64,000 nucleotides of DNA, from the NCBI GenBank assembly GCA_017462015.1, contig JAFTRX010000026.1, forward strand, positions 1 to 64,000, read 5' to 3'. Positions 18,361 to 47,456 of the stretch are shown here, in pieces. Position numbers and translations under genes: made by a program. Under the pieces are notes generated by a model. It did no database searches and had not been told where the DNA came from. It saw only the letters and a list, made by a program, of their open reading frames with translations. This DNA is from Lentisphaeria bacterium. Lineage in GTDB: Bacteria; Verrucomicrobiota; Lentisphaeria; Victivallales; Victivallaceae. How positions within the stretch are numbered: the first letter of the stretch is position 1; the number at the start of each line of letters is the position of its first letter.

Positions 18361-19227
18361 TTAATGTACCGTTTCGTTTGCATAAGTCAAGTAAGTTTCA
18401 TCATTTATTTCTTCTTTACTTATAGGGGCAACGTGACCGTCGATGTAAAAAACGTTAGCTTTTTTACTGTGGCGCAGATGCAGTGTACGGTTGCCGCCAA
18501 TACCTTTGGCACGCTCTTCGCCGGGGCGGGCATTGGAAATATATGGAGCCTGATACCGGTCGCGGGTGTGGATACTGTCACCGCCGAGCGGAACTTTTTT
18601 GTATTCAGCTTTCATCATGGTGCGCCGGTGGATGTGATATATGCTTTCGTTGGGATAAGTTCCGCGCGGACCGAATTCCTCAAGACCGCGTATCACTCCG
18701 TATGTGCCATAGGAACCACGATAGTTCCACGCATACGAACTGGATATGTCCGGGTTCCAGGTCGGACAGCGCGATGCCGCACCTTGAGATTTCAAGTTGC
18801 GGGGCAACTCTCCGGCGAGAGATAAAATCCCTGCCCAGCCGTAGTTGATATCCTTGCCGCTGGAACTTTTGCCGTAAACGTTGAACGCCGCCGGGAAAAG
18901 GTCTTTGTTGTTGTCGGCATACATGTTCATCGCCACTGCCACACTTTTCATATTGCTGACACAACCGGTCGATTTGCCACGCTCCCGGGCGCTTTGCAGC
19001 GCCGGAAGCAAAATCGCCGCCAGTATCGCAATAATGGCAATCACGACCAGCAATTCTATTAAAGTGAAACGGGCATGTGCGGGGGACAAAGGAAACTTTT
19101 TTTCACGGGAAAAAAAGTTTCCTCTTTCCCCCGCGCCCCCTTTCTCCTTCAAAAAAAGCGGGGTGTTTTGCTGCTCCAGTTTGTCGCCGCGCTTGAAAAA
19201 ACGCGTTGTTCCGGCTGAATATTTCAT
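18361..19227 (-). CDS. Pseudopilin-like protein with H-X9-DG motif
   Basis: This encodes a 288-residue prepilin-type protein. [16 protein letters not shown] starts at residue 54 and is the type IV/type II secretion pilin helix with Glu at +5. Near the C-terminus, [14 protein letters not shown] fits the processing-associated H-X9-DG motif common in Lentisphaerota and Planctomycetota. Two features are odd. The leader is 53 residues long, far above normal, because residues ~13-50 are encoded by a palindromic repeat element (19081-19190). The residue before Phe54 is Arg, not the Gly that prepilin peptidase prefers. The start at 19227 has AAGGGA upstream. It sits between an FAD oxidoreductase and a beta-helix gene. 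It may be a surface or secretion accessory rather than a pilus subunit. Confidence 0.9.
19081..19190 (-). repeat. Palindromic element A, copy 1 (inside a coding region)
   Basis: This ~110-bp element is aligned with 22111-22217 and 50951-51060. Its 3' half is an inverted repeat with 23-base arms (19081-19103 and 19110-19132, two mismatches) around CACGGG. Its 5' half carries the shared CAAAAC...CGCTTTT block. It is read in frame in the pseudopilin gene and encodes [10 protein letters not shown]...[13 protein letters not shown]. Confidence 0.85.
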
Positions 19228-20575: not shown

Positions 20576-21421
20576 ATGGGTGACTCTTCAAAAATTTCTG
20601 TGGAAAAAATCCAGTCATTATGGGAAGAGCAGGAACGCATTCACCATATCCATTTGACCTTGCATGACCATATCGGCTGCTTTTATCTTTCGGATGAACC
20701 GCATATACTTTCCGGAGTGAATATCCATCAGGCAAATTGCTGCACTTTTCCCGGAAAAATCCGGAAAAAGTGTCTCGCTCATTGCCGGGATAAAGCTATG
20801 GAAAGGGCGGCAAAGGAGAAAAAAATCTTTACCATGACCTGTTGGCGCGGGATAAAAGAGGCGGTCATGCCGCTGTACCACAATGATATCCATGCCGCAA
20901 CGATCTTTGCCGGTTCTTTCCGGGTGCCTGATTTTGATTTATCGGGATTTTCCCGGAAATATCAGGAAGAGTATTTGAGCATGCCGCTTTGGGATGACTC
21001 CCGAATGGCTGAGCTTGAAACGATCCTGATGACTACCGGTTATGCATTGCTTCAGCTTGCTGAAAATTTGCGCAGTAATATTGAACACGAACCCGGCCGC
21101 AAGGGGATGATCTGCAACTTTCTGCGCCAGCACTTCAAAGAAGCGGTCGGAGTAGGGGATCTTGCAGCGCATCTGGAACTTTCTGAATCGCGGACACTGC
21201 ATGTGTTGCATGAGCTTTTTGGCAGAGGATTTTCCTGTTTGCTCAACGAAGAGCGTATCCATCATGTGACGGAGTATTTGCTCAACACGGAACTGACTTT
21301 GCATGAAATAGCCCGTTTGACCGGGTTCCGCAATGAATATTATTTAAGTTCTGTGTTCAAGAAAATGCGTGGTCGATCTCCCGGAGAACTGCGCCGCCGG
21401 GCATGGAAGAACCGGCTGTAG
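20576..21421 (+). CDS. AraC-family regulator with PocR sensory domain
   Basis: This encodes a 281-residue regulator. Residues ~10-165 resemble the PocR domain, a ligand sensor with conserved cysteines seen here as NCCTFPGK, KKCLAHCRDK and TMTCWRGIKE. Residues ~185-281 hold the two AraC helix-turn-helix motifs (VGDLAAHLELSESRTLHVL and LTLHEIARLTGFRNEYYLS) and end GRSPGELRRR. The start at 20576 has GTGGGA upstream. It is divergent from the FAD oxidoreductase-pseudopilin-beta-helix operon, which it probably controls in response to a small molecule such as a sugar. Confidence 0.9.
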   Translation: MGDSSKISVEKIQSLWEEQERIHHIHLTLHDHIGCFYLSDEPHILSGVNIHQANCCTFPGKIRKKCLAHCRDKAMERAAKEKKIFTMTCWRGIKEAVMPLYHNDIHAATIFAGSFRVPDFDLSGFSRKYQEEYLSMPLWDDSRMAELETILMTTGYALLQLAENLRSNIEHEPGRKGMICNFLRQHFKEAVGVGDLAAHLELSESRTLHVLHELFGRGFSCLLNEERIHHVTEYLLNTELTLHEIARLTGFRNEYYLSSVFKKMRGRSPGELRRRAWKNRL

Positions 21422-21426
21422 GGGTG

Positions 21427-21608
21427 TTGATTTGCTGTAAGAGCAAATCAACGTGAAGCGCAGGATAAATCCTGCATGAAGCATTGCTTCGCAATGTGAA
21501 GCGTTTGCCATTCGGCAAACATGAAGCGCTCGCGTTGCGAGTAAGGACATGATAAGTTTATGGGGAGGTTTGCCGTTGGCAAACCGTGAAGAGCAGGATA
21601 TAAATCCT
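21427..21608 (+). repeat. Array of short hairpins with RTGAAGM spacers
   Basis: Seven small hairpins follow one another: TTGATTTGCT/AGCAAATCAA (21427-21451), GCAGGA/TCCTGC, ATTGC/GCAAT, GTTTGCC/GGCAAAC, CTCGC/GCGAG, GGTTTGCC/GGCAAACC, and AGGAT/ATCCT. Most are joined by the same seven bases, GTGAAGC or ATGAAGC (21453, 21476, 21496 and 21521; GTGAAGA at 21586). Stems differ in sequence, loops are 3-6 bases and spacers are constant. There are no direct repeats of CRISPR type. It lies between the regulator gene and a phage-like remnant. Confidence 0.8.
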
Positions 21609-21629
21609 AGTATTAAATTTTAAGTTGGA

Positions 21630-21857
21630 TTATTCAGCGGATGGAGCTTCTTGCTGCGCTTTTTCTTTGCGCCACTCTTCAAGGTCTTTTTGCTCTTCGG
21701 CGGTGGGCGCATACCCAAGTTTAACGCGCTGATTGAGACATTGCATTGCATAATCGTGAAATTCCTGAGCCATCTTTTTTCCCCATGGGGTTCGCTCAAA
21801 GGCTTCCGCCCTCAATATGTCTCTCGGGGTAGCTTCCCAAAGTTCGCCCTGCGGCAT
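21630..21857 (-). CDS. Small charged protein next to phage-like remnant
   Basis: This encodes a 75-residue, soluble, helical, charged protein (TPWGKKMAQEFHDYAMQCLNQR, quoted in part as KKMAQEFHDYAMQ). I do not recognise it. It has a strong GGAGGT site 5 bases before its ATG, located inside the end of the preceding ADP-ribosyltransferase-like frame, so translation was coupled to that gene. Association with a prophage head-protein remnant suggests phage origin. It may no longer be expressed, since the upstream gene is truncated. Confidence 0.5.
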   Translation of the reverse strand: MPQGELWEATPRDILRAEAFERTPWGKKMAQEFHDYAMQCLNQRVKLGYAPTAEEQKDLEEWRKEKAQQEAPSAE

Positions 21858-21858
21858 A

Positions 21859-22224
21859 TCAAACCTCCGTTATTGCAATGTGGAATATACCTTTTTCATC
21901 AACCGTTGGTTTAATATAGCCCGTTTCTCCGGATTTTAAAGCCCTGAATTTGATTTTTCTGTCAAAAAGTACCTCCTCGTCAGATCCTATCCAGCTGTGA
22001 TCGCCGATGTAAACACCGTTTCTTCCGTGGACATGCAGCATGATCTTATGTTTTCTGTTGTTGTCAAGGTACGCCGCGGTTGCAAGTTCGGATGTGATAA
22101 GTGCATCGTTTTGCGACCAACGGGAGCAAAACACACTCCGCTTTTCTCGGAAAGGGGTGGGGTGTGGGGAGGGGAAAACCCTCTTTTCTCGTGAAAAGAG
22201 GGTTTTCCCCTCCCCACAAATCAA
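21859..22224 (-). pseudogene. Truncated phage-type ADP-ribosyltransferase-like protein
   Basis: The frame of 121 residues has two parts. Residues 1 to ~35 are encoded by palindromic element copy 2 (KTLFSREKRVFPSP). Residues ~38-121 resemble the C-terminal half of mono-ADP-ribosyltransferase domains attached to phage minor head proteins: KIMLHVHGRNGVYIGDHSW, then GSDEEVLFDRKIKFRAL, which looks like the acidic D/E-x-E motif. The N-terminal NAD-binding half is missing. I read this as a prophage gene truncated at the element boundary. The family assignment rests on motif resemblance only. Confidence 0.5.
22111..22217 (+). repeat. Palindromic element A, copy 2
   Basis: The element has perfect 24-base inverted-repeat arms (22164-22187 and 22194-22217) around CTCGTG. 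The 5' part (22111-22163) aligns with copies 1 and 3. The plus-strand frame encodes QNTLRFSRK...TLFSREKRVFPSP. It abuts the stop codon of tcdA and may act as its terminator. Confidence 0.9.
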
Positions 22225-35895: not shown

Positions 35896-36011
35896 CGGAA
35901 ATATGTTTATTTCCATAGCCGGAGGGGAAAAGTGCGTTAATTTTTCACAGTTGTCTCATAAAAACAACCAACGGCGGCGCCAAAACGAAGCGGAGCTTGA
36001 CGAAGAGGAAC

Positions 36012-36060
36012 GGACAAGTCGGACTATTCGGACAAGTCGGACAAGTCGGACAAGTCGGAC
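36012..36060 (+). repeat. Tandem 9-bp repeat (GGACAAGTC)
   Basis: Four exact units of GGACAAGTC and one variant (GGACTATTC, second unit) run head to tail, ending in a partial unit. The unit length is a multiple of three. It lies in the 346-base gap between hom and the cupin regulator gene, just before a phage-like remnant. Confidence 0.9.
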
Positions 36061-46901: not shown

Positions 46902-47456
46902 TTAACGCTGGTTGTTGCCGTTGGGCGGGTAATACTGCTGCTGCGGCTGCTGGTAATACTGTTGCGGCGGCTGCTGGTAATACGGTTGCTGCGGCTGCTG
47001 GCAATACGGTTGTCCCTGCGCCATGGCAACGACTCTCTGGGCGTGCTGCATTTTTACCGCCGCGGCGATTTCACTGGAAACAATTCTTTTGCCCAGCGGC
47101 GCAAACGAAACTATCGCCAGTTTGAAATGTGCAAGTCCGAAGGGGATGCCGATGATACTCGTAAAACAGGTAATACCCGCAATAATATTGAACAGCGAAA
47201 GCCAGAATCCGGAGATGATGCACCACAAAATATTCATTATCGTAGTTCCGGGGATGATTTTTTCTCCCAGCATATCTGCCGGAACCAGCTCTTTCCCAAA
47301 AGGGAAGAAGGCAAAATTGGAAATCCGGAAACAGGCGACACCAATGGGAATACCGATGACAGTTATGCACCACAGGCATCCTGAAAGCAGCCACAACAAT
47401 CCCAGAAGCCAGCCTCCTCCGAAAACAAACCACAAAATATTACCGATAAGAGCCAT
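46902..47456 (-). CDS. yccF: YccF-domain membrane protein with Q/Y/P-rich tail
   Basis: This encodes a 184-residue inner-membrane protein with two YccF domains (DUF307): IGNILWFVFGGGW, GIPIGVACFRI, then NILWCIISGFWL and GIPFGLAHFKLA. The last ~40 residues are a low-complexity tail of repeated PYYQQP and QQYYQQP units, encoded by tandem CTG/CGG-rich DNA (46915-47010), a likely length-variable site. The start at 47456 was chosen because the YccF domain begins there. The function of YccF is unknown. Confidence 0.88.
   Translation of the reverse strand: MALIGNILWFVFGGGWLLGLLWLLSGCLWCITVIGIPIGVACFRISNFAFFPFGKELVPADMLGEKIIPGTTIMNILWCIISGFWLSLFNIIAGITCFTSIIGIPFGLAHFKLAIVSFAPLGKRIVSSEIAAAVKMQHAQRVVAMAQGQPYCQQPQQPYYQQPPQQYYQQPQQQYYPPNGNNQR

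Follow-up and report, generated by a model that had tools for sequence, protein, structure and literature searches.

Among described systems, REPs, RPEs and MITEs are closest in kind to the hairpin array analyzed here, which lacks the test features of REPs. REPs, together with BIMEs, are short palindromes dispersed in groups outside genes, with some copies inside genes, according to the accessible text of one account (PMC3733652). RPEs are small palindromic repeats that occur in frame within protein genes, while MITEs such as BOX, RUP and ERIC are non-autonomous, palindromic and interspersed and can insert into each other, as laid out in the accessible part of a review (PMC10969869). Tandem hairpins that invade intergenic regions as well as genes are also on record from mitochondria, as repetitive hairpin-forming or double hairpin elements (PMC2800124, accessible portion).

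The array discussed below lies between positions 21426 and 21608 of a 64,000-nucleotide stretch of a Lentisphaeria bacterium contig (JAFTRX010000026.1; hereafter, the window). Like REPs, it belongs to a population of dispersed short palindromes that are grouped outside genes and in some cases intragenic. However, the conserved parts of REPs are the stem and a tag, GTAG or CGTC, whereas the present element keeps a linker, RTGAAGC, and varies its stems; its hairpin number is fixed at three, and its own genome has no Y1 gene. With RPEs it shares in-frame insertion. Unlike them, it has one favored target, the prepilin leader, whose motif is duplicated, plus tRNA ends; it also joins several hairpins by constant linkers and occurs in other phyla, the comparison with RPEs being one of descriptions rather than sequences. 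The likeness to MITEs is that of a short, non-autonomous, palindromic element with many interspersed copies. We saw no parent element and recognized no terminal inverted repeats that would tie the array to a known transposase, and the motif duplications, found at prepilin sites only, measure about 23 or 33 nt. The mitochondrial elements carry hairpins in tandem, as here, but no constant 7-base linkers are noted in the accessible portion of that account (PMC2800124). A literature search, with paywalled papers and preprints outside its coverage, returned no paper describing an element of three hairpins and constant linkers.

Whereas the stem is the conserved part of the short palindromic repeats known so far, here the linkers and the number of hairpins are conserved and the stems drift, a combination that offers a natural setting in which to test how DNA mobility is guided by hairpins. 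We propose that the array is probably a small non-autonomous interspersed mobile element, in which four constant 7-base linkers alternate with three variable hairpins, the whole being bordered by two outer hairpins.

One full and one truncated copy in the window

Scanning positions 21426 to 21608 of the window for perfect hairpins (stem of at least 5, loop of 3 to 5), we found seven, whereas 500 dinucleotide shuffles contained 0.53 on average and never more than 3. RTGAAGM linkers numbered five; the shuffles averaged 0.19, with at most 2. The folding z-scores were −6.5 for the plus strand and −7.4 for the minus strand. With counts this far above those of shuffled sequence, the array of hairpins and linkers reported in a preliminary description of the locus is real.

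Its layout is nevertheless not a uniform string. The first copy opens with an outer hairpin at 21426 to 21452 (11-bp stem, 5-nt loop), followed, with all linkers on the plus strand, by linker 1, GTGAAGC (21453 to 21459), inner hairpin 1 (21460 to 21475), linker 2, ATGAAGC (21476 to 21482), inner hairpin 2 (about 21482 to 21496), whose loop reads GAA on the minus strand, linker 3, GTGAAGC (21496 to 21502), inner hairpin 3 (21503 to 21520), linker 4, ATGAAGC (21521 to 21527), and a second outer hairpin (about 21528 to 21541). Next comes a linker-free tail that starts with TAAGGACATGATAA (21542 to 21566); other intergenic copies are likewise followed by similar TRAGGATRTGATAA tails. Beyond it lie the outer hairpin of a truncated second copy (21567 to 21585), that copy's linker, GTGAAGA (21586 to 21592, plus strand), and a decayed hairpin 1 (about 21593 to 21610). 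With four linkers connecting hairpins one to five, and a linker-free tail and a one-linker partial copy after them, the array comprises an interspersed repeat in one full and one truncated copy. Thus, the earlier notion of seven hairpins joined by linkers holds for the first five and fails at the junction 21542 to 21566, where there is no linker.

Upstream, the array is preceded by a gene for an AraC/PocR-type regulator (20576 to 21421, plus strand), the stop codon of which lies 4 bases ahead of the element. Convergent with this gene, a small orphan ORF occupies 21630 to 21857 on the minus strand, which is the GCTTCAY strand. Six neighboring proteins, which besides this regulator include a ThiF-family protein and two small orphans, were compared with PHROGs and gave no sign of the phage-like remnant beside which the array had earlier been placed. 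In the closest relative, G071, which holds the only close orthologue of the locus, the array is absent and synteny breaks at the same point, so this is not a clean empty site.

A second repeat family is represented 600 bases from the array by a long palindrome at 22163 to 22218. This family also inserts into prepilin leaders; in the window it codes for the leader of a prepilin-like gene at 18361 to 19227 on the minus strand, and other prepilin genes carry it between duplicated FTLIELLV motifs.

Dispersed copies with a fixed number of hairpins

Copies of the element are directly seen to be dispersed. In its own genome, a two-linker pattern gave 67 matches compared with 1 for a reversed control. 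BLAST with the array gave 11 matches. Many of them lie at contig ends, the pattern to be expected of an interspersed repeat, which breaks assembly. The stems had been thought unrelated, which proved wrong genome-wide, as identical stems recur in other copies. Within the family, the pattern occurs at least once in 59 of 60 genomes, chance matches being common. Counting as array-rich, by a cut of our own, any genome with 15 or more hits and a threefold or greater excess over the control, we obtained 21 of the 60 genomes, distributed over six of 19 genera, the highest count being 149 against a control of 0. One congener, G056, has 0 matches against 8 for the control.

A wider scan with a three-linker pattern and one genome per species yielded at least 117 stretches holding 213 matches. 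Two hairpin spacers were present in 69 of these 213 matches listed, with a random spacer passing in 1.6%. Among the matches listed, hairpin arrays occur in MAGs of Lentisphaeria, Kiritimatiellae (at least 5 loci) and Clostridia or Oscillospiraceae (at least 13 loci used), mostly from animal guts, in agreement with the earlier mention of similar strings in gut metagenomes. One locus, L252, passed the hairpin filter without having a four-linker run and was left out of later counts. In viral contigs, 166 pattern matches (116 stretches) included 0 hairpin pairs, and BLAST of the window array against phages and plasmids gave no match; on these results we rejected carriage by viruses, phages or plasmids.

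The number of hairpins is fixed. Exactly three hairpins lie between four linkers in 74 of 98 distinct arrays, which are not all independent and in some cases are cut by contig ends; the others have two units (17 arrays), four (6) or six (1). With arrays at locus ends left out, three-hairpin runs account for 53 of 98 in Lentisphaeria, 4 of 6 in Kiritimatiellae and 9 of 18 in Clostridia, making them the commonest class in each group, and only 2 runs are longer. Throughout these surveys the linkers are constant and the units self-complementary, as originally described. The 98 arrays contain 144 distinct units, 25 of which recur in two or more genomes; the units are drawn from a shared pool. Adjacent identical units occur in only two arrays, L154 with four and L233 with two, which together with the fixed number speaks against the suggestion that the array expands hairpin by hairpin and rules out growth one hairpin at a time for most arrays. 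Tandem repetition of whole three-hairpin units was seen in G053 and G055.

Three recurrent settings

The copies recur in three settings, namely, between genes (often convergent ones), directly 3′ of tRNA genes, and in prepilin leaders. The window copy belongs to the first. Presence and absence of the element can be observed directly at one orthologous locus, where 22 bp separate two convergent genes in G049 and where, in G055, tandem units together with a second palindrome occupy this gap, although such a filled and empty pair could also reflect a deletion. In G071, a gene located between these two ends inside an array unit. At this locus (L470:1-2084), the unit supplies the last codons and the stop of the ORF, which we take to be CocE-like.

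For tRNA-associated (type B) copies, we used a search pattern that required CCA and a T tract. Of the 24 copies so found, 17 abut an intact tRNA, beginning directly at its CCA. At two loci, the intact tRNA is separated from the element by a partial tRNA copy: a 43-nt copy of the 3′ end of tRNA-Pro in L104:1541-1960, and a 21-nt copy of the 3′ end of tRNA-Arg in L099:1940-2330, the latter accompanied by an inverted partial copy.

Prepilin motif sites number 62 in the genome of the window (34 rows examined, a few of which repeat one site). Here, insertion between duplicated pieces of the prepilin target is directly visible: at 14 of the 58 distinct prepilin sites, an insert is bordered upstream by further copies of the FTLIELLV motif, 16 in all, and for 15 of these the distance to the prepilin site is divisible by 3, which keeps them in frame. 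The match is exact over 23 nt in 3 of 16, the remainder differing at synonymous positions (the L202 row of this comparison, a self-match, was not counted). With so few exact copies, single-step target duplication is not proven. Nor are all inserts hairpin arrays, some being members of the second long-palindrome family and some of a third, short class. If the element is mobile, then mobile hairpin DNA is the source of certain leader peptides in the pilin-like proteins of these bacteria, and the prepilin leader exemplifies insertion into a protein segment for which removal by cleavage is expected.

Many leaders also mirror the gene into which they lead. At 29 of 64 prepilin sites, the leader pairs with the gene's own first codons in a perfect hairpin of at least 9 bp, compared with 8.5% of 1196 swapped-target controls, and the arms of these hairpins track the synonymous variation of the first codons. 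In one leader class the target-pairing arm reads GTGAAGC, identical to the linker. The linker may derive from the prepilin target or may merely match it; the same linker is found in Clostridia and Kiritimatiellae, where we saw no prepilin link. Several leaders, for example, L182, L187, L192 and L194, carry perfect 14- to 20-bp palindromes just ahead of the hairpin that involves the prepilin codons.

Covarying stems and constrained loops

In 27 aligned intergenic copies, with pairs counted outward from the loop, the stems covary: every slot stays paired while the stems change. One pair is TA in 17 copies and CG in 10, and longer replacements that preserve pairing include CTCGC/GCGAG to CTCAC/GTGAG and TTTTGCC/GGCAAAA to TTTCGCC/GGCGAAA. 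In the last slot, the whole stem is replaced by wholly different ones. Type B copies possess an extra closing stem that exists in two unrelated versions, each of them complementary.

Viewed on the GCTTCAY strand, the loops are mostly GNA or GNNA, sequences that form extraordinarily stable DNA minihairpins according to the accessible text of PMC4686876. Among three-base loops, GNA accounts for 32 of 48 in Lentisphaeria, 15 of 24 in Clostridia and 1 of 11 in Kiritimatiellae; a GNA or TNC loop occurred in 11 of 76 control hairpins. We had also compared GU with AC mismatches as a guide to the folded strand, and dropped this argument when the initial count of 15:2 became 10:4 under stricter rules (p = 0.18). 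As the folded species, RNA and single-stranded DNA fit the data alike.

Covariation of this kind raises the alternative of a host-selected structured RNA, transcribed from the GCTTCAY strand, whose fold would bind a protein or would guard or end transcripts at gene 3′ ends and in tRNA trailers. Judged from sequence, we consider this unlikely. Such an RNA would be consistent with the fixed hairpin number, the constancy of unpaired linkers and loops in the face of covarying stems, and the two unrelated yet complementary closing stems of type B. The orientation of neighboring genes also points this way, the upstream gene running in the GCTTCAY direction at 34 of 63 arrays and against it at 16, with none found at 13 (simple ORF calls, all array types pooled). 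However, template-switch homogenization of hairpin arms can imitate covariation, copy number varies from none to many inside one genus, and copies lie in frame in prepilin genes with a duplicated motif. Furthermore, searches with Rfam 15 above gathering score gave no hit in the window and only tRNAs in 13 Lentisphaeria and 17 other loci, and we discarded a known RNA family as the identity of the element.

A possible mode of spread and its candidate enzymes

For the mobile element that we favor, we infer that whole units are moved or copied while single-stranded. Hairpins of the GCTTCAY strand would be capped by C-GNA-G or C-GNNA-G loops of very high stability, and the four linkers would stay unpaired and serve a putative recombinase. 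Upon insertion, an inverted copy of the target would often become one arm of the first hairpin, suggesting either fold-back DNA synthesis or template-switch homogenization of the arms, during or after insertion. Copies may then persist where the host trims sequence or can spare it, that is, in the cleaved prepilin leader, 3′ of tRNAs and in gaps between convergent genes. The scarcity of GNA loops in Kiritimatiellae (the 1 of 11 given above) counts against the stable-loop part of this model.

We tentatively go one step further and suggest a new class of mobile element, defined by a three-hairpin, four-linker fold of single-stranded DNA or RNA common to gut Lentisphaeria, Kiritimatiellae and Clostridia. 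A putative recombinase would read the unpaired GCTTCAY linkers, and the element would home to prepilin leaders and tRNA 3′ ends and regenerate the target motif, its first hairpin being the target copied backwards. If an enzyme does read the four linkers, it would represent a new kind of hairpin-directed recombinase.

A linked reverse transcriptase or transposase, proposed as a sign of such activity, was not found: the genome of the window (93% complete) has 0 hits each for PF00078 and PF01797, and neither family tracks array number. Reverse transcriptase is present in 8 of 34 congeners and absent from G000 and G049. Integron integrase (TIGR02249) exceeds the cut-off in 0 of 34 genomes. Since none of them tracks the array copies, Y1 transposase, reverse transcriptase and integron integrase were all rejected as movers, and the failure to find a mobilizing enzyme among these three families weighs against a mobile element. 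Ordinary tyrosine recombinases, which hit the TIGR02249 model below the cut-off in 33 of 34 genomes, remain candidate movers.

The distribution of Y1 genes bears on a further reading, in which the array is a REP-type repeat once moved by a Y1 (RAYT/TnpA) transposase that its own genome has since lost. Hairpins with a constant foot sequence would suit such an origin, as would the finding that 11 of 34 congeners have Y1 (PF01797) genes, whole or fragmentary. Yet the array-rich genomes G000, G053 and G055 have no Y1 gene, the array-rich G049 has an interrupted copy only, and the foot is RTGAAGC rather than GTAG; we regard this origin as improbable.

It is, in our view, slightly more improbable still that passive replication errors, with slippage on the 7-base repeat and template switching that perfects inverted repeats, created the arrays without mobility or function. 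Quasi-palindrome template switching has a precedent in E. coli, described in the accessible part of PMC7202029, and the single-unit tandem copies in L154 and L233 as well as the hairpin arms that copy their targets could have arisen in this way. These errors would, however, leave unexplained the identical plan of linkers and three hairpins in three bacterial groups, and the dispersal to tRNA and prepilin sites.

As for systems in which constant and variable parts alternate, the array is no CRISPR, just as the preliminary description had maintained, its spacers being self-complementary hairpins that are three in number and shared between genomes, and an integron attC array is at odds with the integrase result above. 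An integron- or CRISPR-like store that gains units singly is thus extremely improbable despite short constant linkers, variable units and units common to several arrays, given that the number is fixed at three, that no integron integrase exceeded the cut-off, and that the units are palindromes rather than captured DNA.

Other repeats were noted along the way. Tandem palindromes of the form GTGAAGC-ACA-GCTTCAC or GTGAAGC-AGTACT-GCTTCAC, with CCCATGGG-type centers, precede prepilin motifs in L152:256-457 and L153:1465-1692. Elsewhere in the window, a 9-nt unit is repeated 5.6 times at 36011 to 36060 and a 24-nt unit 3.5 times at 46928 to 47012.
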